A stretch of 64,000 nt of DNA. It comes from a virus. Made by a program: the position numbers and the translations under genes. This document shows, piece by piece, positions 37,650 to 62,028 of the stretch (position 1 is the stretch's first letter; every line of letters begins with the position of its first letter). Location: the IMG/VR virus record IMGVR_UViG_3300042691_032880, positions 61,115-125,114 of that record, one strand, 5' to 3'. Below the pieces are notes generated by a model. That model was given only the letters and a program-made list of their open reading frames with translations. It had not been told where the DNA came from and did not search any database.

Positions 37650-39278
37650 TTAGAAGGATCCGCCAGTGATGGGGTTCCTCTGAACAATCTTGAGGACTTT
37701 GGTTGGGTCTTTTACCCAGATCGCAGGCATGGTCTGAGTCATGTAGACGCGATATCCATTGAACTGTCCATTTGACTGGAAGCCTTGGGTACGTCCCATG
37801 TAGTCCATAGTACCATTCTGGTAGAACCACTTCAATTGATTGTCCCAAGACAACTTCAACAAGAAGATGTTGTCATTGGTGTTGTCAGTGATGTCGAAGA
37901 TGATGAAGTTGTACGAAGACAATGGGTAACCATCGATCATTGGGTTTTCAATGTCATTGGTGTGTACGTTGTCAAACGCAGGATTCAACACAAACTTCAC
38001 GTTAGCAAGGAATGGGATGGTGTAGCTGGTGAAAGCGAATCCGAAGTTCAGATCCATGCCTTGTCCAGTGATTGCACCAATACCATTACCAGAAGGACCA
38101 GCGTTGATCACAAGACCAGCGGCGATTGCTTCCTTCTTAATTGCTTCGTTTACAAGCTTCATACCACCCATACCAGTCTGAACGATCAGCTGACGCTTAG
38201 GATCTGGACCTTTGAACTCAACCTTACCATTGTAGAAGTTGAAGATCTCAGCGCGGAACAGCTCAAGAGAGAACTGGCCTTTGTTGTAGATACGCTTGTA
38301 AGAGTTGTCAAGCTGCTTCCAAAGACCCACTGAGAGGCGGATATCATCTGGACCATCTTGCTTAATGCGACCACCTTGTCCCCACATCAAGTAAGTCTCG
38401 ATGTCAGTAGCGATCTTGGTGAGGTGTGCAGCTTCCAGAGCGGTTACAAATGAACGAGTCAATGTACCGTTGTCATAAGCACGCTTCACATATTCCTTAC
38501 CCATTTTGGACACCATGGTCTCAAGGGAAGTGATCGAAGGATCAGCTTGCTTGTCGAACATGCGCCAGATTTCAGTAACAGGAAGTGTACCATCAGCGTT
38601 CAAACCACCTTTCATCATCAACTCAGCGCGAGAAGAGATGCTGTAGTGTACGTGAGCTTCAGCGCCACCTACGAAGTTGTAGTACTCGCGGAAACCTGTT
38701 TGAACCATGATGTCAGAGAAACGCTCACCATATTCTCCACGAGCAGAACCTTTACGGAAGTATTTGGTTCCAGGAGCCATATAGTCCTGCTTGAAGATAG
38801 CGGTGTTGTCATTGTTCACCATCTGCACAGTGTAGACGAAACCATCGCCAGCAGGGATGATGTCATCAGCAGTGATGTACAATTCAGCGCCGTTGTATTT
38901 GTCGTAGGTGATGATGTCACCATGACCGAAGATGCGCTTGTTCAACTTGATGCGGAAGGTTGTTCCATCAGCACCTGTAGTTGTGTTGCCATCTTCCAAG
39001 TTCTCTACGATGTAGGGAAGGTCTTGTACGACAGGAGTTTGCCACTTGTATTCACCACGAGGGTTGTCTACAAGGATAGTGTTCTTACCACCAAATGAAG
39101 CCATCTGGTACAAAGGCATTTCTACCTTTTGCGCCATCGCCCAAAGGTCTACAGGACCCATATCCATAGGTTCAGTTCCTCTAAGCATGTTCACTAAGTG
39201 GTATGAGTCTACGTGGGACGAAGCTTTGTACTGCGTGTCACGTAGAAATAGACCATTGTTTAAAACTGGTGTTGCCAT
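37650..39278 (-). CDS. Major capsid protein
   Basis: A 542-residue protein two genes downstream of the portal, after the scaffold-like gene, with a strong terminator. The segment REYYNFVGGAEAHVHYSISSRAELM (about 192-216), a long spine-like helix region around 230-310 and the final beta strands are in line with HK97-fold capsid proteins of Bacteroidota phages. Residues about 1-30 (FLRDTQYKASSHVDSYHLVNM) would be the N-arm. Codon use is regular. It should form the icosahedral shell; direct proof would need virion proteomics. Confidence 0.8.
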   Translation of the reverse strand: MATPVLNNGLFLRDTQYKASSHVDSYHLVNMLRGTEPMDMGPVDLWAMAQKVEMPLYQMASFGGKNTILVDNPRGEYKWQTPVVQDLPYIVENLEDGNTTTGADGTTFRIKLNKRIFGHGDIITYDKYNGAELYITADDIIPAGDGFVYTVQMVNNDNTAIFKQDYMAPGTKYFRKGSARGEYGERFSDIMVQTGFREYYNFVGGAEAHVHYSISSRAELMMKGGLNADGTLPVTEIWRMFDKQADPSITSLETMVSKMGKEYVKRAYDNGTLTRSFVTALEAAHLTKIATDIETYLMWGQGGRIKQDGPDDIRLSVGLWKQLDNSYKRIYNKGQFSLELFRAEIFNFYNGKVEFKGPDPKRQLIVQTGMGGMKLVNEAIKKEAIAAGLVINAGPSGNGIGAITGQGMDLNFGFAFTSYTIPFLANVKFVLNPAFDNVHTNDIENPMIDGYPLSSYNFIIFDITDNTNDNIFLLKLSWDNQLKWFYQNGTMDYMGRTQGFQSNGQFNGYRVYMTQTMPAIWVKDPTKVLKIVQRNPITGGSF

Positions 39279-40642: not shown

Positions 40643-43369
40643 TTATTTTTTTCCCTTCTTATCGTACTTGTTCTTATTCTCTTTAGCAACCGCTAATTGC
40701 TTGTCAGCTATCTCTTTTCGAGTATTTAATTCCTCTCTTTTTAAGTTCAAAGCTTGAGATTCACGGTTGTTTTTATTGATCTCTTGCTCCCGTTTCAAGC
40801 TGATATTCTCATCAGCCTGACGCTTCTTTTCAAGATATTGTAGAGAATCCAAGTAATCACTTTGTTGATTGGCGTTGAGATCTTGAACCTGATAACCAGC
40901 ACCTTTGATCTCCGCAACTTGAATCTGTGTCTCTCTATCCAATTGCTTTTGTTCAGCCTCAAAACGTTGTTGAGCCTCTTGCATTTGTTGCGCAGACTCA
41001 AGCTGTTGCTGTTGCATCTGCTGTTGCTGCTGCATATCTTCTTGACGCTGTTGCTGAGTCTTCTGTTCAATCTTCTTAAGGACGTGGGTCACCTCACTCA
41101 TAGAGTCAGCCTTCACAATTTCAGCTAAGTCATAGATGCTGGCACCTGCTGTATTGTTCTGAATAGCAAGCTGTTTGATCTGCTCCATTATCTGTTTATG
41201 GTTGACCTTGGTGGTCACAAAAACATTTAACTCACGAGATAACAAGTCGGTACCATTCATTTCAAAGTTTACCTTCTCATCCTGCGATGTCATATATGAA
41301 AGACGCAAACTTGGACGACGAGAATGATAATATTGAGCTAGGTCTGTACGCATCTGATGCACTCTAGGCATCAGATACTCAGAGTGTTGTACAAAGTACA
41401 TCTCAGTCTGTGAGAAGGATGCATTGATGGACTGCTCAATACCTGTGGCTGTCTCCTGACCTGTCTGTTGTCCAAGACGTTGAGGTGTAATACCAATCAC
41501 CTCAAATGCCTGTTGCTTGAAGTAATTAGCTAGCTGAATCCTGGTCATCAGACGCTGGGTCTGCTCCAAGTTCAACATCTGGTAGTGATTGAATCCTACC
41601 GCATTACCTGTGTTTGCAATGCTTGTATCCAAAGGAAGGATCTGGAAGTTCTTCATTGCAACATATGCCTTGGCATAGTTGTTCTCACCCCAGTCCTCAC
41701 CTGCGGAATGTTTTGGAAGAGCATTGTGATCCAACAAAATCACAGTACCCAACTCATCTATAAGAATGTCCGATATCTGGTTATTCACCAAATTGTAACC
41801 CACCTGGAAAGGCTTCATCTTGTCCACAAGCGATACGCTTCTGGAGTTGCGATCTGAGAATACCGCTCCCTCTACAGGAAGCTTGCATCCATATATAGTA
41901 AAGTCACCTTTAAACTGGAACTTTACTGGTTTGATATTCAGATAAATAGGTTGGATACCCATGTAATCCGCATTACCATAGAAGCTAGGTCTGTTAGGAC
42001 CAATCTTCAATCCACCCCAAACCTGGTTGATCCATATCCACTTAATATGCTCTCCTTGGGTCAAAGTGTTCTCATCTTTGTTCTTATTAATAGTGGTGTC
42101 GTATACAGGAGGTACCGTAACCTTATAGTCTTCGGTAACAACCTCTTGATATTTCATACCGTTTTCAGGATCAATCTTGGTAAGATAGCCTACCATTCTT
42201 TGGGACTTCCAATAGCATGTGGTGACCCTGAGCAATTGGTAGGTTCCGAAGTCTTGGAGGTCTTCCGATTCATTGAGGATGCGAGTGATGATGTCATCCC
42301 CCGCAGCCAAGAAGTAATCGTTAACAGAGGTAAACTGACGGAAGCCCAAAGAAGGAGAGCTAACATTCCACTGATGACTGCGAGTACCGTCGTAGTAAGT
42401 TCCATCGTTCTGATAACCTTGGATAGGATAACCAGCAGCTTTTTTAGGATATATGTTTTCAAGGGACCTGAGTTGTTCATCGTTCATCAAATATCCATAC
42501 TTGTCGATGATATCCGACACAGTATGCAGTTCAATCTTACCTACGAAGTTTCCTTGTGATATGTACCTAATGTCAGGGGATTTGTGATAAAAAGTAAGGA
42601 CTGGGTTCCATAACTCCACCTCATAATCATCCTCATCCATCCTAAAATGCCAGAACTCACGGTCGGTTGTAAGCATGTCGCGAAACGCACGATTTTCAAG
42701 TTCCTTCATACGGAACTTTTCAGTGTCAGCTTCATGTTGATGATTTGCCCACTGTTCAACTAATGACCGATAATCCTTTTTAAAGAACTGTTCTATTTCG
42801 GGAAGTGTCTTAATGTTCTCTGGAGCAAGCGCCTGTTTGAATTCTTCAGACTCAGGATCAGCACCCATTTCAATCATCTTCATTGCAATCTGAGTCTCCG
42901 CCTTTTTTACAAGGTATTGCTCAATCATGGAACGCTTATATTCCATGGCTTCATTGAAACTGGTAGGATCAGTGGTGATATATTGTACTTTATCCGTACG
43001 CTTAGCAAATTCCCCACACATGACGTTGATCACATTGGGGATAATAGGATAGAACTTCAACTCGAGCGCAGATGCGTCCTCGCGCGTGAGCGTGTCTATC
43101 AAATCAGCATACTCGTTGTCCTCCTCGACTATGTAGTCGGTCCTGTCAATGATACCATTGGCAAGTTTATAATTCTTAAGCAACTTACGAGCATTGCGAC
43201 GAATCTGTCTAAGACCTTCCATCTCAAACCAGTCCATATTCCAAGCACCCCATTCACCATCCTTCTGTGTCTTTGGAAGGAACTGAATAGGTTGGGTCAA
43301 TGTACCCATACGGGTATGGTCAGTCTTGACCCCCGCTTTCGCTTGCATTGCGTTAATAACTAATGCCAT
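40643..43369 (-). CDS. Portal protein
   Basis: A 908-residue protein directly downstream of the large terminase. The core (about 60-700) shows the layout of crAss-like portals, including a long alpha/beta clip-wing section with EFWHFRMDEDDYEVELWNP (about 236-254) and the loop region ANTGNAVGFNHYQMLNLEQTQR near 590-610. The C-terminal 170 residues are a Gln/Glu/Lys coiled coil with a run of Met-Gln repeats (QQQQQMQQQQLESAQQ), a barrel-like extension frequent in this lineage. It would form the dodecameric DNA gate and the motor docking site. Confidence 0.85.
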   Translation of the reverse strand: MALVINAMQAKAGVKTDHTRMGTLTQPIQFLPKTQKDGEWGAWNMDWFEMEGLRQIRRNARKLLKNYKLANGIIDRTDYIVEEDNEYADLIDTLTREDASALELKFYPIIPNVINVMCGEFAKRTDKVQYITTDPTSFNEAMEYKRSMIEQYLVKKAETQIAMKMIEMGADPESEEFKQALAPENIKTLPEIEQFFKKDYRSLVEQWANHQHEADTEKFRMKELENRAFRDMLTTDREFWHFRMDEDDYEVELWNPVLTFYHKSPDIRYISQGNFVGKIELHTVSDIIDKYGYLMNDEQLRSLENIYPKKAAGYPIQGYQNDGTYYDGTRSHQWNVSSPSLGFRQFTSVNDYFLAAGDDIITRILNESEDLQDFGTYQLLRVTTCYWKSQRMVGYLTKIDPENGMKYQEVVTEDYKVTVPPVYDTTINKNKDENTLTQGEHIKWIWINQVWGGLKIGPNRPSFYGNADYMGIQPIYLNIKPVKFQFKGDFTIYGCKLPVEGAVFSDRNSRSVSLVDKMKPFQVGYNLVNNQISDILIDELGTVILLDHNALPKHSAGEDWGENNYAKAYVAMKNFQILPLDTSIANTGNAVGFNHYQMLNLEQTQRLMTRIQLANYFKQQAFEVIGITPQRLGQQTGQETATGIEQSINASFSQTEMYFVQHSEYLMPRVHQMRTDLAQYYHSRRPSLRLSYMTSQDEKVNFEMNGTDLLSRELNVFVTTKVNHKQIMEQIKQLAIQNNTAGASIYDLAEIVKADSMSEVTHVLKKIEQKTQQQRQEDMQQQQQMQQQQLESAQQMQEAQQRFEAEQKQLDRETQIQVAEIKGAGYQVQDLNANQQSDYLDSLQYLEKKRQADENISLKREQEINKNNRESQALNLKREELNTRKEIADKQLAVAKENKNKYDKKGKK

Positions 43370-43376
43370 AGCTATA

Positions 43377-45590
43377 TCATTTTATGTTTCGGAACGCCTG
43401 TCGTTTGAAGCCATTACCTGATTTAGGTACAGGTTTCCCCAAATTACGAAAGGGGTTCATATTTAATTTAGTCAAATTTGATGACTTTTGCTCATGTCTG
43501 CGTGGATTTGTTTCAGTTTCAATCTTATGAGGATATCCCCTGTTGGACTGTTGAACCTTGGCAAAAGCAACCAACGCACAGAAAGCAACCAGTCTATCCA
43601 CGTTCAATCCTTCTCTGTACTGTTGCATTTCCTTTAAAAGAACTGGGTCTTTCACCCGTTCTATACCATAGGTGGTCTTGACAATGGTTCCATCATCCAT
43701 GGTTTCCACGTCAACCTCTTCGGTAAGAAAGTTAACTCCATAGGATATAAGATGTGACTTAAACAGGGTACCTGTGTTCTTCCAACCATACTCCTGGAAC
43801 ACGTTATTGTTTGATCCCAAGTCCTTGAGAAACAGGATCTGAGACTTGGGAACCAGGTACTTCTGCTTCTTTTTGAATATCATATGCTGGATAAACAAAG
43901 AGATGTTGTTCTCCACAATGGTCCAGGCACCATAATATTCTATAAGCATCTCCAAACGCTCATGCGTTTTGGTTATGTCATCAAACCTACCGCACCAGGA
44001 CGCTACAATCTGGTCCTTTTCTATATAGTTCTCTACGCTACCATCATACTTTTTACGAGTAACCTGGAGCGGACTCTTATATACGAATATGCTACACAAG
44101 GAGTCAGAGGTTGTTGTCTTACCCTCACCGACAGGGTCAATGGATGCATAGTATGTCATAAAGGGAGCGTCCTTAACAGGATGTTCCCATATCAATACCG
44201 CACCCTCTTTGTCTTGTGTCTTGGGTGACAATGGAAACTCCATGATCGGTAGCTTCTTTGTAGTCTTGTAATCAATACCACCTTTGTCATCTCGGAACAA
44301 TTCCACCGCTTCACAGTAGTATTCCTTATCCTCGATCTTTCGAAGCTGACTTGTTATAAGATGCAACGGCCACACGGATGACTTCCGATACGCAAACGCC
44401 TCTTCTATATTGATAGGTTTCTGGGATATCCTTAGCTGGTAATCGTTTGCTTTCAGGTCCTTCTTCCAACGCTTGCGTTCCTCCTGAATCATGTCCACGG
44501 CATTCTCAACAAGCGAGTTTCCCCACTCATCTATACATGGAATCATACTCCACTGCTCAGGAATAAACAGTCCACAGTCTCCATAATCACCGTTTTCATT
44601 CATCAGGTTTGTACCTACAGCCAAAACATCCTTGGAATCTGGATTGAATATCAAGTCACGCAAGGGTTCACACTGGTCCAAGTCACCGACTGAACCTGCT
44701 GCCACAAACATTCCTGTATAAATCATACCTGATTTGAGTGCAGGAAGCAGATACTCCAAGGTCTCATTCATCCTAGGTGCAATACCAGCCTCCTCATGGA
44801 AAAAGAAATTACATGGACCACCTACGCCTGCTGTTGGATCCTTTTCCAAGGTAATCCCAATCATCACAGACTTCAGACCTACGTCACGCTTACGACCTCC
44901 TTGTACAGTCTCGATCTTCTGTTCCCAGTTAAAAGTCTTATCTGGCTGACATGGACGGTACCATGCAGTATGGGTATTGAGGAAGTTCCTATACTCATCC
45001 AAAAAACGCCAGGTTCCTTTCTCGTTAATATAGTCTTTCAATGACGCAGCTATCTTATTTACCCATCCTTCTTCGAACCAAAATCCATTAATCATCTTGG
45101 CAGCATGGAAGTAAGAGGATGCAATCTGACGTTTCTTCAGAATAGCTACATGCTTGTAACTGAGCTTTGCAATCTCCTCATACAGAGCCATGTGATACTG
45201 AGCATCACGAACATCGGCAAACGTAAACTTACCTACCTCTTTATTATATATAGGTAGGAAGTTCAACCACATATAGTAGTCCCTGGTAATGTACCAGGTC
45301 TTGCCTTTTGATTTATAAATAACACCATTACGACACTTCTCCTTCTCCGTATCCCAGTATAAAACGTAGTCTTTGGACCTAGGAGGTGCCGCACAATAAA
45401 ACTTATTTCTGTTGAAGGATCTGGCCTGTTCGTTAAACAAAAGTGATGTCTCATCAAACCCGTATTGACCAGGTTCTTTGAATATACCTTTTACAAAAGC
45501 AAGCAAATCCTCCCTAGTTGTGAACTCCATGTGGCTCCACAATCCGCTATCAGCGTCGTAGGTAGGTATGCGGATGAAGTATTCTATCAT
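43377..45590 (-). CDS. terL: Large terminase subunit
   Basis: A 737-residue packaging motor. The ATPase domain has a divergent Walker-A region (AILKKRQIASSYFHAAKMI, about 148-166) and a Walker-B-like NFFFHEEAG near residue 266. The nuclease domain shows YYASIDPVGEG (about 480), a second acidic block IVENNISLFIQHMIFKKKQ, and a late Asp in LNVDRLVAFCALVAFAK (about 690), the usual three acidic positions of the RNase-H-like fold. The sequence style is that of crAss-like terminases. It overlaps the small upstream gene by four bases and is seven bases from the portal. Confidence 0.9.
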   Translation of the reverse strand: MIEYFIRIPTYDADSGLWSHMEFTTREDLLAFVKGIFKEPGQYGFDETSLLFNEQARSFNRNKFYCAAPPRSKDYVLYWDTEKEKCRNGVIYKSKGKTWYITRDYYMWLNFLPIYNKEVGKFTFADVRDAQYHMALYEEIAKLSYKHVAILKKRQIASSYFHAAKMINGFWFEEGWVNKIAASLKDYINEKGTWRFLDEYRNFLNTHTAWYRPCQPDKTFNWEQKIETVQGGRKRDVGLKSVMIGITLEKDPTAGVGGPCNFFFHEEAGIAPRMNETLEYLLPALKSGMIYTGMFVAAGSVGDLDQCEPLRDLIFNPDSKDVLAVGTNLMNENGDYGDCGLFIPEQWSMIPCIDEWGNSLVENAVDMIQEERKRWKKDLKANDYQLRISQKPINIEEAFAYRKSSVWPLHLITSQLRKIEDKEYYCEAVELFRDDKGGIDYKTTKKLPIMEFPLSPKTQDKEGAVLIWEHPVKDAPFMTYYASIDPVGEGKTTTSDSLCSIFVYKSPLQVTRKKYDGSVENYIEKDQIVASWCGRFDDITKTHERLEMLIEYYGAWTIVENNISLFIQHMIFKKKQKYLVPKSQILFLKDLGSNNNVFQEYGWKNTGTLFKSHLISYGVNFLTEEVDVETMDDGTIVKTTYGIERVKDPVLLKEMQQYREGLNVDRLVAFCALVAFAKVQQSNRGYPHKIETETNPRRHEQKSSNLTKLNMNPFRNLGKPVPKSGNGFKRQAFRNIK

Positions 45591-45805
45591 AGTTCACCGA
45601 TACGCTCTGGATCCCCACCTATCTTGCGTATGATTTCAGACAGGGTTTTGACATCCTTGGAGCGTATGACAATCATCTTGGGATCATTAGGATCGTTAAA
45701 GTAATCCAAGTATTTCTCCCTAGGGAATGCATTCCATAGATTGGTCCATGGATTGTAGTGGAATATCCAGTTGAATAAGGACTGGTCGATTTTCTTATTG
45801 GTCAT
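45587..45805 (-). CDS. Small conserved protein upstream of terminase
   Basis: A 72-residue basic protein (NWIFHYNPWTNLWNAFPREKYLDYF) overlapping both neighbours by a few bases. The Trp/Tyr/Phe-rich N-half and IIRKIGGDPERIGEL tail look like a compact helical protein. Function unknown; location suggests a packaging accessory. Confidence 0.55.
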   Translation of the reverse strand: MTNKKIDQSLFNWIFHYNPWTNLWNAFPREKYLDYFNDPNDPKMIVIRSKDVKTLSEIIRKIGGDPERIGEL

Positions 45806-46307
45806 ATGCTAGTTGTTGACCTCCGCGCACCTGTGACTGCTGCTCCTCCATCAAGTCCTTGTACGCACCCTTGAAACTCTGACGGATGTTCTCAAACTTG
45901 GCAGCTGTGTTCACCAGTGCCATGATGTTACCATCCCTTCCTGCTTCAATAGGTGCAGTTTCCATGTACCTTGCGAGTTTGTCCAGCATCTTCTTGATAC
46001 CCATGTATGACCTGAGGGTCGGAGTCTCATAAAGCTGCTGGCATAACTTGACAGCGTTGATCACAACTGGATCCTCCACGGAGAACGAAGAATTCAGCTG
46101 GCGTAATATAAGAGTTTCTTTGTCAGTTTCCACCACATCAAAGAAAGGATTCAGGTCTGGATTGGGACAGGTCATGTAAAACACATAGGCAAACACATCA
46201 ATATGGTGTTCTGGATATGCATCGAATACCGCCTTCAGATCCTTCAGCGTATAACAATGTTCGCTGGGAATCACTGCTCCGTTTGATATGTCAAACAGCC
46301 TTACCAT
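45795..46307 (-). CDS. Conserved protein, candidate packaging accessory
   Basis: A 170-residue mainly helical protein two genes upstream of the large terminase. It contains NPFFDVVETDKETLILRQLN, a central CQQLYETPTLRSYMGIKKMLDKLARYME block and a Gln-rich tail. Position is where a small terminase subunit often lies, but no DNA-binding motif is visible, so the small-terminase idea is only a possibility. Confidence 0.5.
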   Translation of the reverse strand: MVRLFDISNGAVIPSEHCYTLKDLKAVFDAYPEHHIDVFAYVFYMTCPNPDLNPFFDVVETDKETLILRQLNSSFSVEDPVVINAVKLCQQLYETPTLRSYMGIKKMLDKLARYMETAPIEAGRDGNIMALVNTAAKFENIRQSFKGAYKDLMEEQQSQVRGGQQLAYDQ

Positions 46308-46576
46308 ACGATTGCAATGTCAAAATCTGACACCATCAACTTGATTTCACCTTTTACATCCACAATATCCGAACGTTCAATTCCATTCTTGGGGATGTAG
46401 ACCACATCACCTTTAGCAATACCTTCAACGGCATCACCTACGGCAAACACTTCCAAGTGTGTCCACTTCTTCATGTTCTCGCGATCAATGGACTCCTGCA
46501 CCTCAGGGGTCATTTCAATCGGTGACTTCTCAATAACTGGTCTGTTCAACAAGACTCTTTTTCCTTTTAGTTTCAT
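46301..46576 (-). CDS. GroES-like co-chaperonin
   Basis: ATG at 46576 follows the previous stop at once and gives 91 residues, a normal GroES length. The layout matches the GroES barrel: RVLLNRPVIEKSP at the N-terminus, a mobile-loop-like polar stretch (about 18-38), LEVFAVGDAVEGIAKGDVVYI (40-60; compare the AVG and GD.V of GroES) and IKLMVSDFDIAIVW at the end, like VLIM.E.DILAIV. T4 gp31 and similar phage co-chaperonins help host GroEL fold capsid protein; the gene's place close to terminase and capsid genes fits. Divergent, so some doubt remains. Confidence 0.75.
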   Translation of the reverse strand: MKLKGKRVLLNRPVIEKSPIEMTPEVQESIDRENMKKWTHLEVFAVGDAVEGIAKGDVVYIPKNGIERSDIVDVKGEIKLMVSDFDIAIVW

Positions 46577-46577
46577 C

Positions 46578-47390
46578 TTACTTGTTTTCTTTAAAATGTT
46601 CAATTAATGCATGTACCTCGTCCTTCAAATAAGGGACTTTATATGGGATAACTTCTTTTATCTTGAAATTTCCGTCATCATCCTTCAGATATATCGGATA
46701 TCCGTACGGATCACGGTCATAATCTTCTTCAAAAATGATGTGATGCAATGTCAATTCGCCTGGATGATACATTGGATTGTGGCGAAGTATGATATACATG
46801 TATATGCTAAGCTGAACAGTATAGTGATTCAGATTGCAATCATCCAGATGATTCAATGGATAAAGCATCTTTTGACTGATGCCTTCGTAGTTCTTGTAAG
46901 ACTGCGTCTTGATTTCCTTATTGGTCTTGTAGTCCAGGATATCCACCCGTCCGTTGGCTACGGTGACACGGTCACTCTGTCCTGCAATCTTCGCAGACGG
47001 GAGATAAAGGAAAAACTCTGGATACACACCCTCGGATATGCGCTGGTCGGTGGCAACTTTCATACCATCCTCATCATACAAACACTTATGTACGGTAAGG
47101 GTGTTCTCCATGTAACTTATGGTCTTGCATTCCAACAGGTCTCTCTCCCGCTGGTCATGGTACCAGTTACCTAGACGAATGCTACGTTGACTCTCACCGT
47201 TCCATACATCCACAATATCCTGCGGCTGCATTCCGTACCACTTGCTTTTCTTGTTACGGGATGCCTTTAATGCTGCAGATGGAGCGTCAAATGGCTGCTT
47301 GTACCTGGACAACAGCTTTGTGACACTCACATACTCTTCATTCTGGTTTGTCTTGTATGTGTGAGTCTGTGGTTCGAATATCAGTTTCAT
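46578..47390 (-). CDS. PD-(D/E)XK family nuclease
   Basis: A 270-residue protein with the RecB/Cas4-like nuclease core: GNWYHDQRERDL (about 76-87), EFFLYLPSAKIAGQSDRV (about 124-141, catalytic Asp), VDILDYKTNK (about 148-157, the D-x-K pair) and the helical QLSIYMYIIL motif (about 190-200). It probably trims or recombines DNA. It overlaps the Cys-rich gene by 53 bases, and its stop is followed at once by the co-chaperonin ATG. Confidence 0.85.
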   Translation of the reverse strand: MKLIFEPQTHTYKTNQNEEYVSVTKLLSRYKQPFDAPSAALKASRNKKSKWYGMQPQDIVDVWNGESQRSIRLGNWYHDQRERDLLECKTISYMENTLTVHKCLYDEDGMKVATDQRISEGVYPEFFLYLPSAKIAGQSDRVTVANGRVDILDYKTNKEIKTQSYKNYEGISQKMLYPLNHLDDCNLNHYTVQLSIYMYIILRHNPMYHPGELTLHHIIFEEDYDRDPYGYPIYLKDDDGNFKIKEVIPYKVPYLKDEVHALIEHFKENK

Positions 47391-47718
47391 TGGAAGATTG
47401 GTTCATATCCTTGTTAGCCAGATACTGATCCAATGCAGCTTCCTCCTGTTCGGTCAAAACCGCCAACCAACGACCATTGTCACACGCGGATGACAAGGAT
47501 CTGGTCTTAAAAGCAAGTGAACACCCACATACACCGCAACAAGGCGAGGTACCTGGGACCATACACTTACTTCCTTCACGGTCAATTTGAGGACAAGTTT
47601 CGCATATACCCATGCGTTCTGCTGCAATGTGTTCAACATCAGCTTTCTTGAAGATATTGTTATAGATACCTTCGAAGATCTTATCCCTCTCCTTCCAGAT
47701 TTTGATTACGTCTATCAT
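47338..47718 (-). CDS. Cys-rich putative zinc-binding protein
   Basis: Start chosen at ATG 47718 (MIDVIKIWKERDK), preceded by a purine-rich AAAAAGGAAAAAAAG; earlier in-frame starts lie inside the HU-like gene. The protein, 126 residues, has CETCPQ, CMVPG...CCGVCGCSL and SSACDN, about eight Cys in zinc-ribbon-like pairs. It may bind nucleic acid. It sits between the HU-like and nuclease genes, overlapping both. Confidence 0.65.
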   Translation of the reverse strand: MIDVIKIWKERDKIFEGIYNNIFKKADVEHIAAERMGICETCPQIDREGSKCMVPGTSPCCGVCGCSLAFKTRSLSSACDNGRWLAVLTEQEEAALDQYLANKDMNQSSNETDIRTTDSHIQDKPE

Positions 47719-48067
47719 GTTTCTTTTTTTCCTTTTTAACGTTGCTGTCAGACTCCCTGCGTTTGGCAGCTTCAAGCTTCATATTGTCCTTGAACAACTG
47801 ATTCATGATGGTCAAACCACCCGTTGTCGGGTTCTGAGAGTATTTATCTATGACTATGTTGTTTATTTTCAGCTTCTTGTCAATCGACCAAGGCTTGACA
47901 TAGAACGTACCTAGTCCTTTCATGAATATCCTGTTGTGTTCCATCGAACTGAGTGTCTTACGAACGGTGTCCCAATAAACATCCAGTACGCTTTGAACCT
48001 CCTTTTCAGATAGTCCCAACTCCTTGGCTAACTTCGGCAACAGGTCTTTTATCCGTTTGGGTCTCAA
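47681..48067 (-). CDS. HU/IHF-family DNA-binding protein
   Basis: A 128-residue basic protein. RIKDLLPKLAKELGLSEKEVQ, YWDTVRKTLS and IFMKGLGTFYVKPW match the helix-turn-strand layout of HU/IHF proteins, and the phage version carries a Lys-rich C-terminal tail (about 105-128). crAss-like phages usually carry such genes next to late or packaging genes. The start is most simply TTG at 48067, since no ATG lies close before the conserved part. It should bend or coat DNA. Confidence 0.8.
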   Translation of the reverse strand: MRPKRIKDLLPKLAKELGLSEKEVQSVLDVYWDTVRKTLSSMEHNRIFMKGLGTFYVKPWSIDKKLKINNIVIDKYSQNPTTGGLTIMNQLFKDNMKLEAAKRRESDSNVKKEKKKHDRRNQNLEGEG

Positions 48068-48455: not shown

Positions 48456-48696
48456 CGTCAGGAACTTCTTTTTTTAACGTACGTTTCTTAGGAGCTTCGT
48501 CTTCAGGTTGCTCATCCCCAGGTAGTTGCGTCATCTGAGCAATCATTCCAATAGCCTGGATGCGTTCGGCTTCATAAACCGTAGCATCACGCTGGAGTTT
48601 AGCCAACTCACTACGTAAAGACGCAAGTTCAATTTCGTCCTTGTACCACTTTACCATCTGCTCACGCGATGGCTTTTCTTTTTGTTCTTCGCTCAT
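48445..48696 (-). CDS. Small coiled-coil protein (83 aa)
   Basis: First gene of the leftward transcription unit. Residues about 20-55 form an alpha-helical coiled coil (ELASLRSELAKLQRDATVYEAER, split) and the tail is acidic then basic (DEAPKKRTLKKE). The ATG at 48696 lies 20 bases after a TATATTTG element. No function known. Confidence 0.6.
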   Translation of the reverse strand: MSEEQKEKPSREQMVKWYKDEIELASLRSELAKLQRDATVYEAERIQAIGMIAQMTQLPGDEQPEDEAPKKRTLKKEVPDDGC

Positions 48697-48715
48697 AGGT
48701 TGTTTGATTTTACAG

Positions 48716-48723
48716 CAAATATA
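48716..48723 (-). promoter_or_regulatory. Host-type -7 promoter element TATATTTG
   Basis: TATATTTG on the minus strand fits the Bacteroidota TAnnTTTG -7 consensus and precedes the leftward operon by about 20 bases. A -33 partner is not obvious. Confidence 0.4.
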
Positions 48724-48777
48724 ATCACAAATTTAAATTTTCATAATTTATTGAAATGAAGTTTTTTCTGCAATGGG

Positions 48778-48808
48778 TTGATAATTACCAAGGGAATACC
48801 TATATTTA
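48778..48808 (+). promoter_or_regulatory. Rightward promoter-like -33/-7 pair
   Basis: TTG at 48778-48780 and TATATTTA at 48801-48808 are separated by 20 bases, close to the Bacteroidota TTTG/TAnnTTTG arrangement. The ATG at 48818 follows nine bases later, so a very short leader is expected. Confidence 0.35.
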
Positions 48809-48817
48809 ATTATACAG

Positions 48818-49126
48818 ATGGCTCAGACACCACTTATAAATAAGGACCAATTTGTAAGAAAACTCTACAAATTGTTCAGGGAGAAACCCCGTATATTCCA
48901 TGTCAAAAAACTTAAATCCGCTAGAGGTTATTGCCACACGGATATAGAGCGTATTGAACTGGACTACAGGGATGAAATCATAAGCACCCTGCTTCATGAG
49001 GCGTTGCATTTTCTCCATCCTGAAATGTCTGAGGATCAAGTATTATGGCATGAAACCTATCTTATAAACAAGTTAAGTCCACGCCAAGTAAAAAACATCA
49101 TCAAGCGCTTCAGCGCAATCCTCTAA
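48818..49126 (+). CDS. Mini zinc metalloprotease-like protein (HExxH)
   Basis: A 102-residue protein with HEALH at about residues 59-63, the HExxH zinc motif, followed by FLHPEMSEDQVLWHETYLI in which a later His or Glu could be the third ligand. The layout is that of a minimal SprT/WLM-like peptidase. It is the first gene of the rightward region and is followed three bases later by the phosphoesterase. Substrate unknown. Confidence 0.6.
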   Translation: MAQTPLINKDQFVRKLYKLFREKPRIFHVKKLKSARGYCHTDIERIELDYRDEIISTLLHEALHFLHPEMSEDQVLWHETYLINKLSPRQVKNIIKRFSAIL

Positions 49127-49129
49127 ACC

Positions 49130-50245
49130 ATGGTAAGAAAACAAAAAAGAATCAAGGACTTAATCCACGAATTCATACAGAAAAACGACGCTGAAGGCGT
49201 GACAACCAACATGGTAGCCTTCAAGGCGGCACAGCTTTTCCAGAAGGTGCATCCCCATATAGAACACAGCATATACACCATAGAGAAATACGTGGTCCAC
49301 TCGCGCGCAGGAAAGATCGAAGACTGGGTGGACGAAGACCTGGACCAGATCGCACACCAGATATCCAAGAACGTAGATACAGCAAGGGAAGCCTTCGTAT
49401 CCCCCAAGGTGTACCAGCTTGAACCTGACCTTACTGAAGGACCTGACTTCGAAGATCCTCTAAGTGACAACCTCATAGACTTCCCCCAGTCATGGTCGGA
49501 AATAAACGAACCCTATGTAATACAAGGAGTTACCAACCTAGGAGTATGCAACGATATCCACCTTCCCTACCATGATAAGTTCGCGGTTCAAGCATGTTTC
49601 GCAGAATTCAAACGGCGGAACGTCGACGGGATATACCTCAATGGAGACGTCATGGACATGGAAAACGTCTCACGCTTCGAACACGCGCCCAACGGAAGAT
49701 ACCTCAAAGATGAAATCGACGTTGGGCGTTCCTTTTTAAAGTCCCTGCGTAAGATGTTCCCCAACATTCCAATCTACTGGAAGGACGGTAACCACGAAAA
49801 ACGCCTGGAGTCCTATATAATAAGTAGGTGCGAAGAACTCGCTAACCTCTACGGAATGGACATACCAAGTCTTATGCAACTAAAAGACCTGGACATAATC
49901 CACGTACCTGAACAGAAAGTGGCAAAATTTGGACACCTATGGATAGCACATGGTCATGAACTCGGTCTAAGATCAGGGACGGTAAACATCGCAAGACAGG
50001 TAAGGATGAGGGTAGGAGTAAACATCATGTTCGGTCACTGGCATAAAAATCAAACAGACTCCAGTAGAAACCTCGCTGACGAAGTACATACCGCATGGGC
50101 GGTCGGTAGCCTCTGCTACCTAAAACCAAGATACACAGGTGTACTGAACCAATGGACCCAAGGTGGTGCAACAGTACAACTCCACGATGACAAGAAATCA
50201 TTCACCGTCCACCCCTTCCAAATACAAGACGGAGTCGTCATCTAA
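49130..50245 (+). CDS. Calcineurin-like metallophosphoesterase
   Basis: A 371-residue protein. The C-terminal domain has the family signatures in order: NDIHLPYH (D-x-H, about 140), NGDVMD (about 171), GNHE (about 219-222), AHGHE (about 273-277) and FGHWH (about 301-305). These ligate the two metals of calcineurin-type phosphoesterases acting on nucleotides or DNA. The first 120 residues are a separate helical, possibly DNA-binding domain (RIKDLIHEFIQKNDAEGVTT). The domain order is found in other phages. Confidence 0.85.
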   Translation: MVRKQKRIKDLIHEFIQKNDAEGVTTNMVAFKAAQLFQKVHPHIEHSIYTIEKYVVHSRAGKIEDWVDEDLDQIAHQISKNVDTAREAFVSPKVYQLEPDLTEGPDFEDPLSDNLIDFPQSWSEINEPYVIQGVTNLGVCNDIHLPYHDKFAVQACFAEFKRRNVDGIYLNGDVMDMENVSRFEHAPNGRYLKDEIDVGRSFLKSLRKMFPNIPIYWKDGNHEKRLESYIISRCEELANLYGMDIPSLMQLKDLDIIHVPEQKVAKFGHLWIAHGHELGLRSGTVNIARQVRMRVGVNIMFGHWHKNQTDSSRNLADEVHTAWAVGSLCYLKPRYTGVLNQWTQGGATVQLHDDKKSFTVHPFQIQDGVVI

Positions 50246-60762: not shown

Positions 60763-62028
60763 ATGTACTTGATCAAAACCGCCTTGGAAGGCACCCAGTT
60801 TACTGTAAAATTCGTTGCTAATCAAAAGAACCAGATGCCTGTAAGCATCAGTGAAAGTACCAGAATCCTAGGTGATGCCAAAATATTGACCAAGTTCCCC
60901 ATAGGTACGCACTTCATTGTGTCTGATATCTCATGGGGTGAGATTGATTCCAAAATCGTAGGTACTGTACGTCCTATGTTCTACGATGATATGATATATG
61001 CGGGTAGTCTTGCCAGTGACAATACCCCTACCAATGCGGATGTGGAGTATCTGATGGACTGGATGATTTCCAATTCTGATTATCGCTGCGAGGGTGCACG
61101 CAAGTATGCTGCTAAGTTCGTTGAACTGGGATACAGCGTGGATGTGGAAGGTAAATGCAAGGATTATGTGGAGGATTCCACAGGTTCTTTGCGTGAGCAG
61201 ATCATCCGTAAGTTCCCTTGTCCAAAGGAGTCTGAGATAGGATTCCACGTGGATGAGGATGTATGGTATCTGCTTATCCGCAATATCATGCGTGGTGAGA
61301 ACACGATGCTGATAGGTCCCACAGGTTCAGGTAAGACAGAATTGGTTACGCATATCACCAAAGCGATGGACAAACATCTGTCTATCCAGGATATGGGTAC
61401 CGTTCAGGATGCCCAGTCAGCACTCTTAGGTGTACACCGTTTGAACAAAGAGGGTCATTCTGAGTTCGATTATGCTCCATTCGTAGGTCACGTACAACGT
61501 GAAGGTATCGTTCTTCTTGACGAGTTGAATCGTGCGCCATTGTCTGCTGCGAATATCCTGTTCCCTTGTCTTGACAGACGTAGGTATCTACCTATCGACA
61601 TCGCTGTCGGTGAGGGTGTGAGGACTGTACCTGTACATGACAAGTGTGTATTCTTTGCCACTGCTAACTTAGGTGCAGAGTATACAGGTACTACGCAGAT
61701 CGACCGTGCGTTGTTGGATCGTTTCATGCCTGTGGAGTTGACATATCCTACAGACACTGCTGAGACCAAGATCCTGATGATCCGCACAGGTATCGATGAG
61801 AAGACTGCCAAAGCGATTGTCAAGGTATCCAAGACCATCCGCGAGCAGTTCAAGGAGCAGGAGTTGTCCAATGTGGTGTCAGTACGACATACCTTGTTGG
61901 CTGCCAGTCTTATCAAGGACGGCTTTGACACTGTAGGTGCATTGATGAAGGTGATTATGCCTTTGTTCGATGACTCTATGGGTGTATCTGAGCGTACCAA
62001 AGTGAAATCCATTATCGCTGCGAACTGA
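60763..62028 (+). CDS. MoxR/CobS-type AAA+ ATPase
   Basis: A 421-residue protein. Residues 1-165 are a phage-specific N-domain. The AAA+ core has Walker A GPTGSGKTE (about 185-193), Walker B IVLLDELNRAPLSAANIL (about 247-264), and the sensor-1/arginine-finger region FFATANLGAEYTGTTQIDRALLDRF (about 295-319, quoted in halves by function). The DELNRA motif is typical of the MoxR/CbbQ/NorQ/CobS group that acts with VWA partners. It is followed by a 58-residue gene and a VWA gene, forming a classic pair. Substrate unknown. Confidence 0.85.
   Translation: MYLIKTALEGTQFTVKFVANQKNQMPVSISESTRILGDAKILTKFPIGTHFIVSDISWGEIDSKIVGTVRPMFYDDMIYAGSLASDNTPTNADVEYLMDWMISNSDYRCEGARKYAAKFVELGYSVDVEGKCKDYVEDSTGSLREQIIRKFPCPKESEIGFHVDEDVWYLLIRNIMRGENTMLIGPTGSGKTELVTHITKAMDKHLSIQDMGTVQDAQSALLGVHRLNKEGHSEFDYAPFVGHVQREGIVLLDELNRAPLSAANILFPCLDRRRYLPIDIAVGEGVRTVPVHDKCVFFATANLGAEYTGTTQIDRALLDRFMPVELTYPTDTAETKILMIRTGIDEKTAKAIVKVSKTIREQFKEQELSNVVSVRHTLLAASLIKDGFDTVGALMKVIMPLFDDSMGVSERTKVKSIIAAN

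Follow-up and report, generated by a model that had tools for sequence, protein, structure and literature searches.

Phage GroES genes are common, and co-chaperonins without a roof are known from T4; the question raised by the present locus is whether a small gene in the head and packaging operon of an environmental phage encodes a further lid of this kind and, if so, which proteins such a lid would help to fold. The stretch of DNA analysed, here called the window, comprises 64,000 nt and comes from an IMG/VR virus record of 125,114 bases. An initial annotation, made from the letters alone, had described a 91-residue GroES-like protein next to the terminase and nuclease genes. The genes on which the argument depends are the following.

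46301-46576, minus strand: GroES-like co-chaperonin gene, 91 aa (open reading frame, family alignment, dN/dS, profile match, AlphaFold models)
46578-47390, minus strand: PD-(D/E)XK nuclease or exonuclease-like gene, directly upstream (PF12705, 1.1e-5; phrog_298 exonuclease, 1.6e-22)
47681-48067, minus strand: IHF/HU-like protein of the same operon (PF00216, 5e-6)
45795-46307, minus strand: p170, a conserved 170-aa protein that lies near TerL in relatives too
43377-45590, minus strand: TerL, terminase large subunit (phrog_6681, 3.4e-64; about 25-27% identity to crAss-like TerLs)
40643-43369, minus strand: portal protein (phrog_6547, 4.4e-101)
37650-39278, minus strand: major capsid protein, 542 aa, 60.9 kDa, candidate client (phrog_11589 major head protein, 1.2e-31)

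The open reading frame at 46301-46576, in which the stop codon is counted, begins on the minus strand with an ATG at 46576 and encodes a 91-aa product, MKLKGKRVLLNRPVIEKSPIEMTPEVQESIDRENMKKWTHLEVFAVGDAVEGIAKGDVVYIPKNGIERSDIVDVKGEIKLMVSDFDIAIVW. The program-made list of reading frames places its start at 46603, a TTG; the relatives begin at or near the ATG instead. Relatives with 69-81% identity are present on 14 viral contigs and more distant clades share 38-51%; together with 27 distinct relatives from IMG/VR, the window protein forms a family alignment of 28 members. Comparison with four close relatives yields a dN/dS of about 0.08-0.15 and changes mostly at third codon positions, which, together with the conservation among relatives, means that the reading frame is not a product of chance; it is a genuine gene under purifying selection. 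A single scan of a collection of bacterial and archaeal genomes yielded no homologue of the co-chaperonin. Every motif initially named for the protein (RVLL, AVG...GD.V.I and LMVSDFDIAIV) is found in the translation.

The nuclease gene and the co-chaperonin gene are 1 nt apart, and p170, which has no family match in Pfam or PHROGs, starts inside the last bases of the co-chaperonin gene. On the same strand follow p72, TerL, the portal gene, a gene for a 409-aa protein and the major capsid gene. The proposed position beside the nuclease is therefore exact, whereas the position beside the terminase is approximate, as TerL lies three genes downstream. Within the nuclease-TerL-portal-capsid operon, the co-chaperonin gene is found at any of three positions depending on the relative, which implies that it has been kept through rearrangement; in most clades it stays within this block, and for a few (L034/L035/L040 and L065-L070) no nearby packaging genes were detected.

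Several other features of the region were recorded. A strand switch at 48696-48818 separates the leftward (minus-strand) head and packaging genes from rightward reading frames, among them 48818-49126 and the metallophosphoesterase gene at 49130-50245. Beside the IHF-like gene lies p145 (47338-47775), a cysteine-rich, probably zinc-binding protein that is present in most relatives and weakly in Leptolyngbya phage Lbo-JY46. Between 50406 and 51440, a 52-nt GC-rich repeat occurs four times (core ACGCTCGCTGCGCTCGCTGC; the other three copies are 63-87% like the first) and is possibly a regulatory or mobile repeat, and at 60763-62028 there is a gene for a MoxR/CbbQ-type AAA ATPase (PF07728, PF08406).

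The likeness of TerL, the presence of an IHF-like gene and the portal and capsid families suggest that the window phage belongs to a crAss-related lineage. In the phage collection searched, the closest capsid protein is that of Lbo-JY46 (28.8%), whose portal is 33.6% identical to that of the window. Given this likeness of capsid and portal, either a cyanobacterium or a member of the Bacteroidota could be the host. Lbo-JY46 (L246, PP438436.1 95099-124730), which was recorded from a cyanobacterium, has a crAss-like head module with related capsid, portal, TerL and IHF-like genes, and carries many tRNA genes upstream of TerL.

Significant sequence similarity to GroES/Cpn10 is reached only at the level of the family, as the window protein alone falls below all cut-offs. 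Taken singly, it failed to match any Cpn10 model of Pfam, PHROGs or NCBIfam, and searches with it against Pfam, PHROGs, PDB sequences and the phage collection (tblastn) returned nothing usable; profile searches of PDB sequences missed GroES too. A match to 4p99 (4.6e-5 for the whole repeat protein) was rejected as it consists of four repeats of a 7-bit match. By contrast, an hhalign comparison of the family profile with a GroES profile, built from 77 Bacteroidales GroES, E. coli GroES and two phage GroES, gave an alignment of near full length (E 8.7e-7, prob 91.5, score 39.1) that places IEM of the window protein on IVL. The score of 39.1 compares with a peak of 22.8 among 300 column shuffles and with 14.7 for the reversed family. 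Individual members also match phrog_3188, the co-chaperonin GroES family (14 of 28, best 2.6e-4), phrog_931, mostly over the central part (17 of 28, best 5.1e-4), and an NCBIfam GroES model (nine members, best 0.004). T4 gp31 itself belongs to phrog_931 (3.7e-50).

Structure prediction points to the same fold. AlphaFold gave pLDDT values of 85.0 for the window protein and 88.9 for a 44%-identical member, and for both models every Foldseek match against the PDB at E<=1e-3 is a GroES/Cpn10; with the window model, the first 28 ranks are all of this kind. The top matches in BFVD, a library of viral structures, are phage GroES. VIA-align superposes the two models on GroES with Z 8.8 (82 aligned, 4.7 Å) and 9.3 (82 aligned, 5.4 Å) and on gp31 in 2cgt with Z 7.2 and 7.9, whereas barrels of the alcohol dehydrogenase type score lower, with Z 5.3 and 6.7 and below. 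The TM-scores of the models are about 0.65 with an rmsd near 5 Å, and certainty is lowest for the loop and arm (residues 11-40). As modelled, the window protein is thus a Cpn10 β-barrel with the GroES/Cpn10 fold, which bears out the barrel that had been expected from the sequence.

Three regions of the protein set out how it resembles GroES and how it departs from it.

46511-46519, minus strand: residues 20-22, IEM, the equivalent of the GroEL-contact tripeptide I25-V26-L27 of GroES (hhalign register, column counts)
46460-46507, minus strand: residues 24-39, a lengthened arm, probably helical, that follows the tripeptide and contains invariant K37-W38 (spacing, model)
46409-46438, minus strand: residues 47-56, a short turn that replaces the roof hairpin of GroES (spacing, model)

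In GroES, the mutations I25D, L27D, I25A and L27A abolish binding to GroEL while V26D does not (PMC5575113). The family follows the same rule: the outer positions of the tripeptide are I or L (26 and 2 members) and L, M or I (17, 8 and 3) in 28 of 28 members, and the middle position varies (E in 14, V in 7, H and I in 3 each, Q in 1). Constant outer and variable middle positions are what would be expected of a family selected to bind GroEL. The acidic middle residue of the window protein (E21) was counted against a GroES-type lid. The hydrophobic tripeptide that had been sought in the mobile loop is therefore present, as I-E-M here and as [IL]-x-[LMI] across the family, and it agrees with the family profile, the PHROG matches of the relatives and the AlphaFold and Foldseek results in upholding the GroES-like reading.

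Beyond the tripeptide the family has an architecture of its own. Residues 24-39 form a helix in the AlphaFold model at moderate confidence, and the distance from the tripeptide to VG is 27 residues in all 28 members, which is 8 more than in canonical GroES. It is 19 in E. coli GroES and always 19 in 138 further canonical sequences (61 viral and 77 cellular), although the viral part of this survey is skewed, its scan pattern having demanded a canonical loop; gp31 has 20 and the protein of Flavobacterium phage FpV4 has 22. The distance from VG to GD is 9 in 28 of 28 members, compared with 18 in E. coli, 13 in Bacteroidales and 11 in gp31, and no strands are predicted between residues 47 and 57 of the window model. 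The roof β-hairpin, a feature of GroES, is thus absent from the family. This hairpin is not strictly defining for GroES/Cpn10, as E. coli GroES has it and gp31 does not. In gp31 the roof loops are missing and the mobile loop is longer, and the larger cage admits the 56 kDa gp23 (PMC6318259).

The choice of T4 gp31 as a precedent therefore fits in architecture, with a missing roof and a lengthened loop (loop/roof spacing of 27/9 in the window family, 20/11 in gp31 and 19/18 in E. coli GroES). By comparison of structures and models, both are small, phage-encoded Cpn10 folds found in the context of head assembly, and gp31 uses the GroEL of the host, as the window protein presumably does. The extra residues of the window family, on the other hand, sit after the tripeptide (27 vs 20), and T4 gene 31 has rIII and 31.1 as neighbours while the window gene is part of a packaging operon. 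Aligned with gp31 alone, the family profile gives a match that is not significant (hhalign E 0.041, 18 columns, out of register). With cellular GroES/Cpn10 (PF00166) the family shares the fold, the N- and C-terminal strand motifs, the position of the tripeptide and the VG...GD core, but it falls below the Pfam cut-off, lacks the roof hairpin, has eight more residues after the tripeptide, contains the invariant KW and often has an acidic residue in the middle of the tripeptide.

Canonical phage GroES (phrog_3188; Bacteroides phage SJC03 and Flavobacterium phage immuto) are likewise phage-encoded co-chaperonins, and that of SJC03 is also roofless (spacing 9); they differ from the window family in their 19-residue spacing, where measured, and their good scores with GroES models, and immuto encodes its own GroEL too. 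Different types of GroES-like gene occur in other crAss-related phages. FpV4 ALN97151.1 (94 aa; L247:1456-1740, KT876724.1 54075-54359), annotated as hypothetical, looks like a roofless GroES and resembles the window family in its start (MKVIGRRVLV), an IIL tripeptide, a roof spacing of 11 and an in-register match to the family profile (E 4.5e-4, prob 33); its loop spacing of 22 and its location, adjoining thymidylate synthase and far from TerL, set it apart. QOR58013.1 of the uncultured crAss-like phage cr50_1, annotated as 'chaperonin', is GroES-like by profile (E 5.1e-6, prob 86) and its gene lies about 6 kb upstream of TerL, but it has 129 aa with a long insertion and no direct match to the window family profile. 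No convincing GroES homologue was found in Lbo-JY46 (capsid CDS of about 558 codons) or crAss001 (about 504 codons), so the role is not universal in the wider group. A weak match in crAss001 over 22 positions was judged to be chance, and a 91-aa ORF directly before TerL of Lbo-JY46, considered as a counterpart, does not look GroES-like. The main text of three papers on crAss-like phages (PMC10136315, PMC10172136, PMC7886860) does not mention chaperonins.

Taken together, these results argue that the window protein, a strongly diverged phage co-chaperonin, works as a GroES-type lid on the GroEL of its host, a reading to which we give a probability of roughly 0.83. Neither GroEL/Cpn60 (PF00118) nor a match to PF00166 was found in the window record or in ten related and reference records, so the partner would be host GroEL. 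The protein would cap it as a heptameric ring, and I20 and M22 of each mobile loop would fit into the groove of a GroEL apical domain in the manner of I25 and L27 in GroES. Without a roof hairpin, and with eight additional residues in the arm that follows the tripeptide, the lid would leave the cage open above or give it slightly more room, much as T4 gp31 does. It would probably retarget host GroEL to late proteins of the phage, given that its gene sits among those for head and packaging and that a search for a phage GroEL found none.

Which protein benefits most is less settled. The 60.9 kDa capsid protein, gp23-sized or larger and encoded in the same operon as the co-chaperonin, is a suggestive candidate only; a role as lid is likely, while the chance that the capsid protein is the main client, of which it is the likeliest single one, comes close to even but stays just short of it, because no convincing counterpart was found in Lbo-JY46 and crAss001 and other GroES types occur in crAss-related phages. 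Alternatively, a GroES-type lid could serve mainly other proteins (tail, ejected, portal or very large virion proteins) or provide extra co-chaperonin capacity, with no special place for the capsid; this is a serious contender, although we hold it to be somewhat less than evenly probable. It would accommodate the changes of operon slot and the clades without packaging genes detected nearby, the position of the FpV4 gene outside the head block and the capsid gene of Lbo-JY46 (about 558 codons; GroES not detected there), but sits less well with the retention of the gene within the nuclease-TerL-portal-capsid block in most clades and with a capsid protein whose size stresses a normal cage.

A different proposal keeps only the Cpn10-like barrel, as in the GroES-like domain of alcohol dehydrogenase, and assigns the protein another role, for example as a virion or regulatory component. 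The barrel is indeed shared, with Z up to 5.3 and 6.7 for reductases and weak ADH_N matches in 10 of 28 members; this proposal is nevertheless improbable, as GroES/Cpn10 comes clearly first in Foldseek and VIA-align, the GroES profile matches near full length and the tripeptide is conserved exactly at the positions that the mutants require. Least probable of all is a competitor or inhibitor that keeps the GroES fold and the grip on GroEL to stop host folding, since, even if the conserved contact residues would permit binding and the longer arm with its invariant KW could lock the complex, the gene sits with late structural genes and not with host-takeover genes, and the protein of similar architecture that has been characterised, gp31, works as an active co-chaperonin (PMC6318259).

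With a GroES-type lid as the preferred reading, it can be proposed, tentatively and at less than even odds, that a large environmental clade of crAss-related phages arrived at its own gp31-style lid independently of T4, by losing the roof and gaining a conserved helical arm behind the tripeptide, with a wider or open cage to suit a 61 kDa capsid protein, and that the 27/9 spacing together with KW defines a new co-chaperonin subfamily. Phage co-chaperonins as such are already known, but the window family escapes standard annotation and offers, beside gp31, a compact further case of a roofless phage lid. As the natural variation of its tripeptide agrees with the published mutants, the family can help to test which features of the lid determine the size of the cage and the range of clients. 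A further suggestion is that some crAss-related phages may be limited by host GroEL in the folding of their late proteins.
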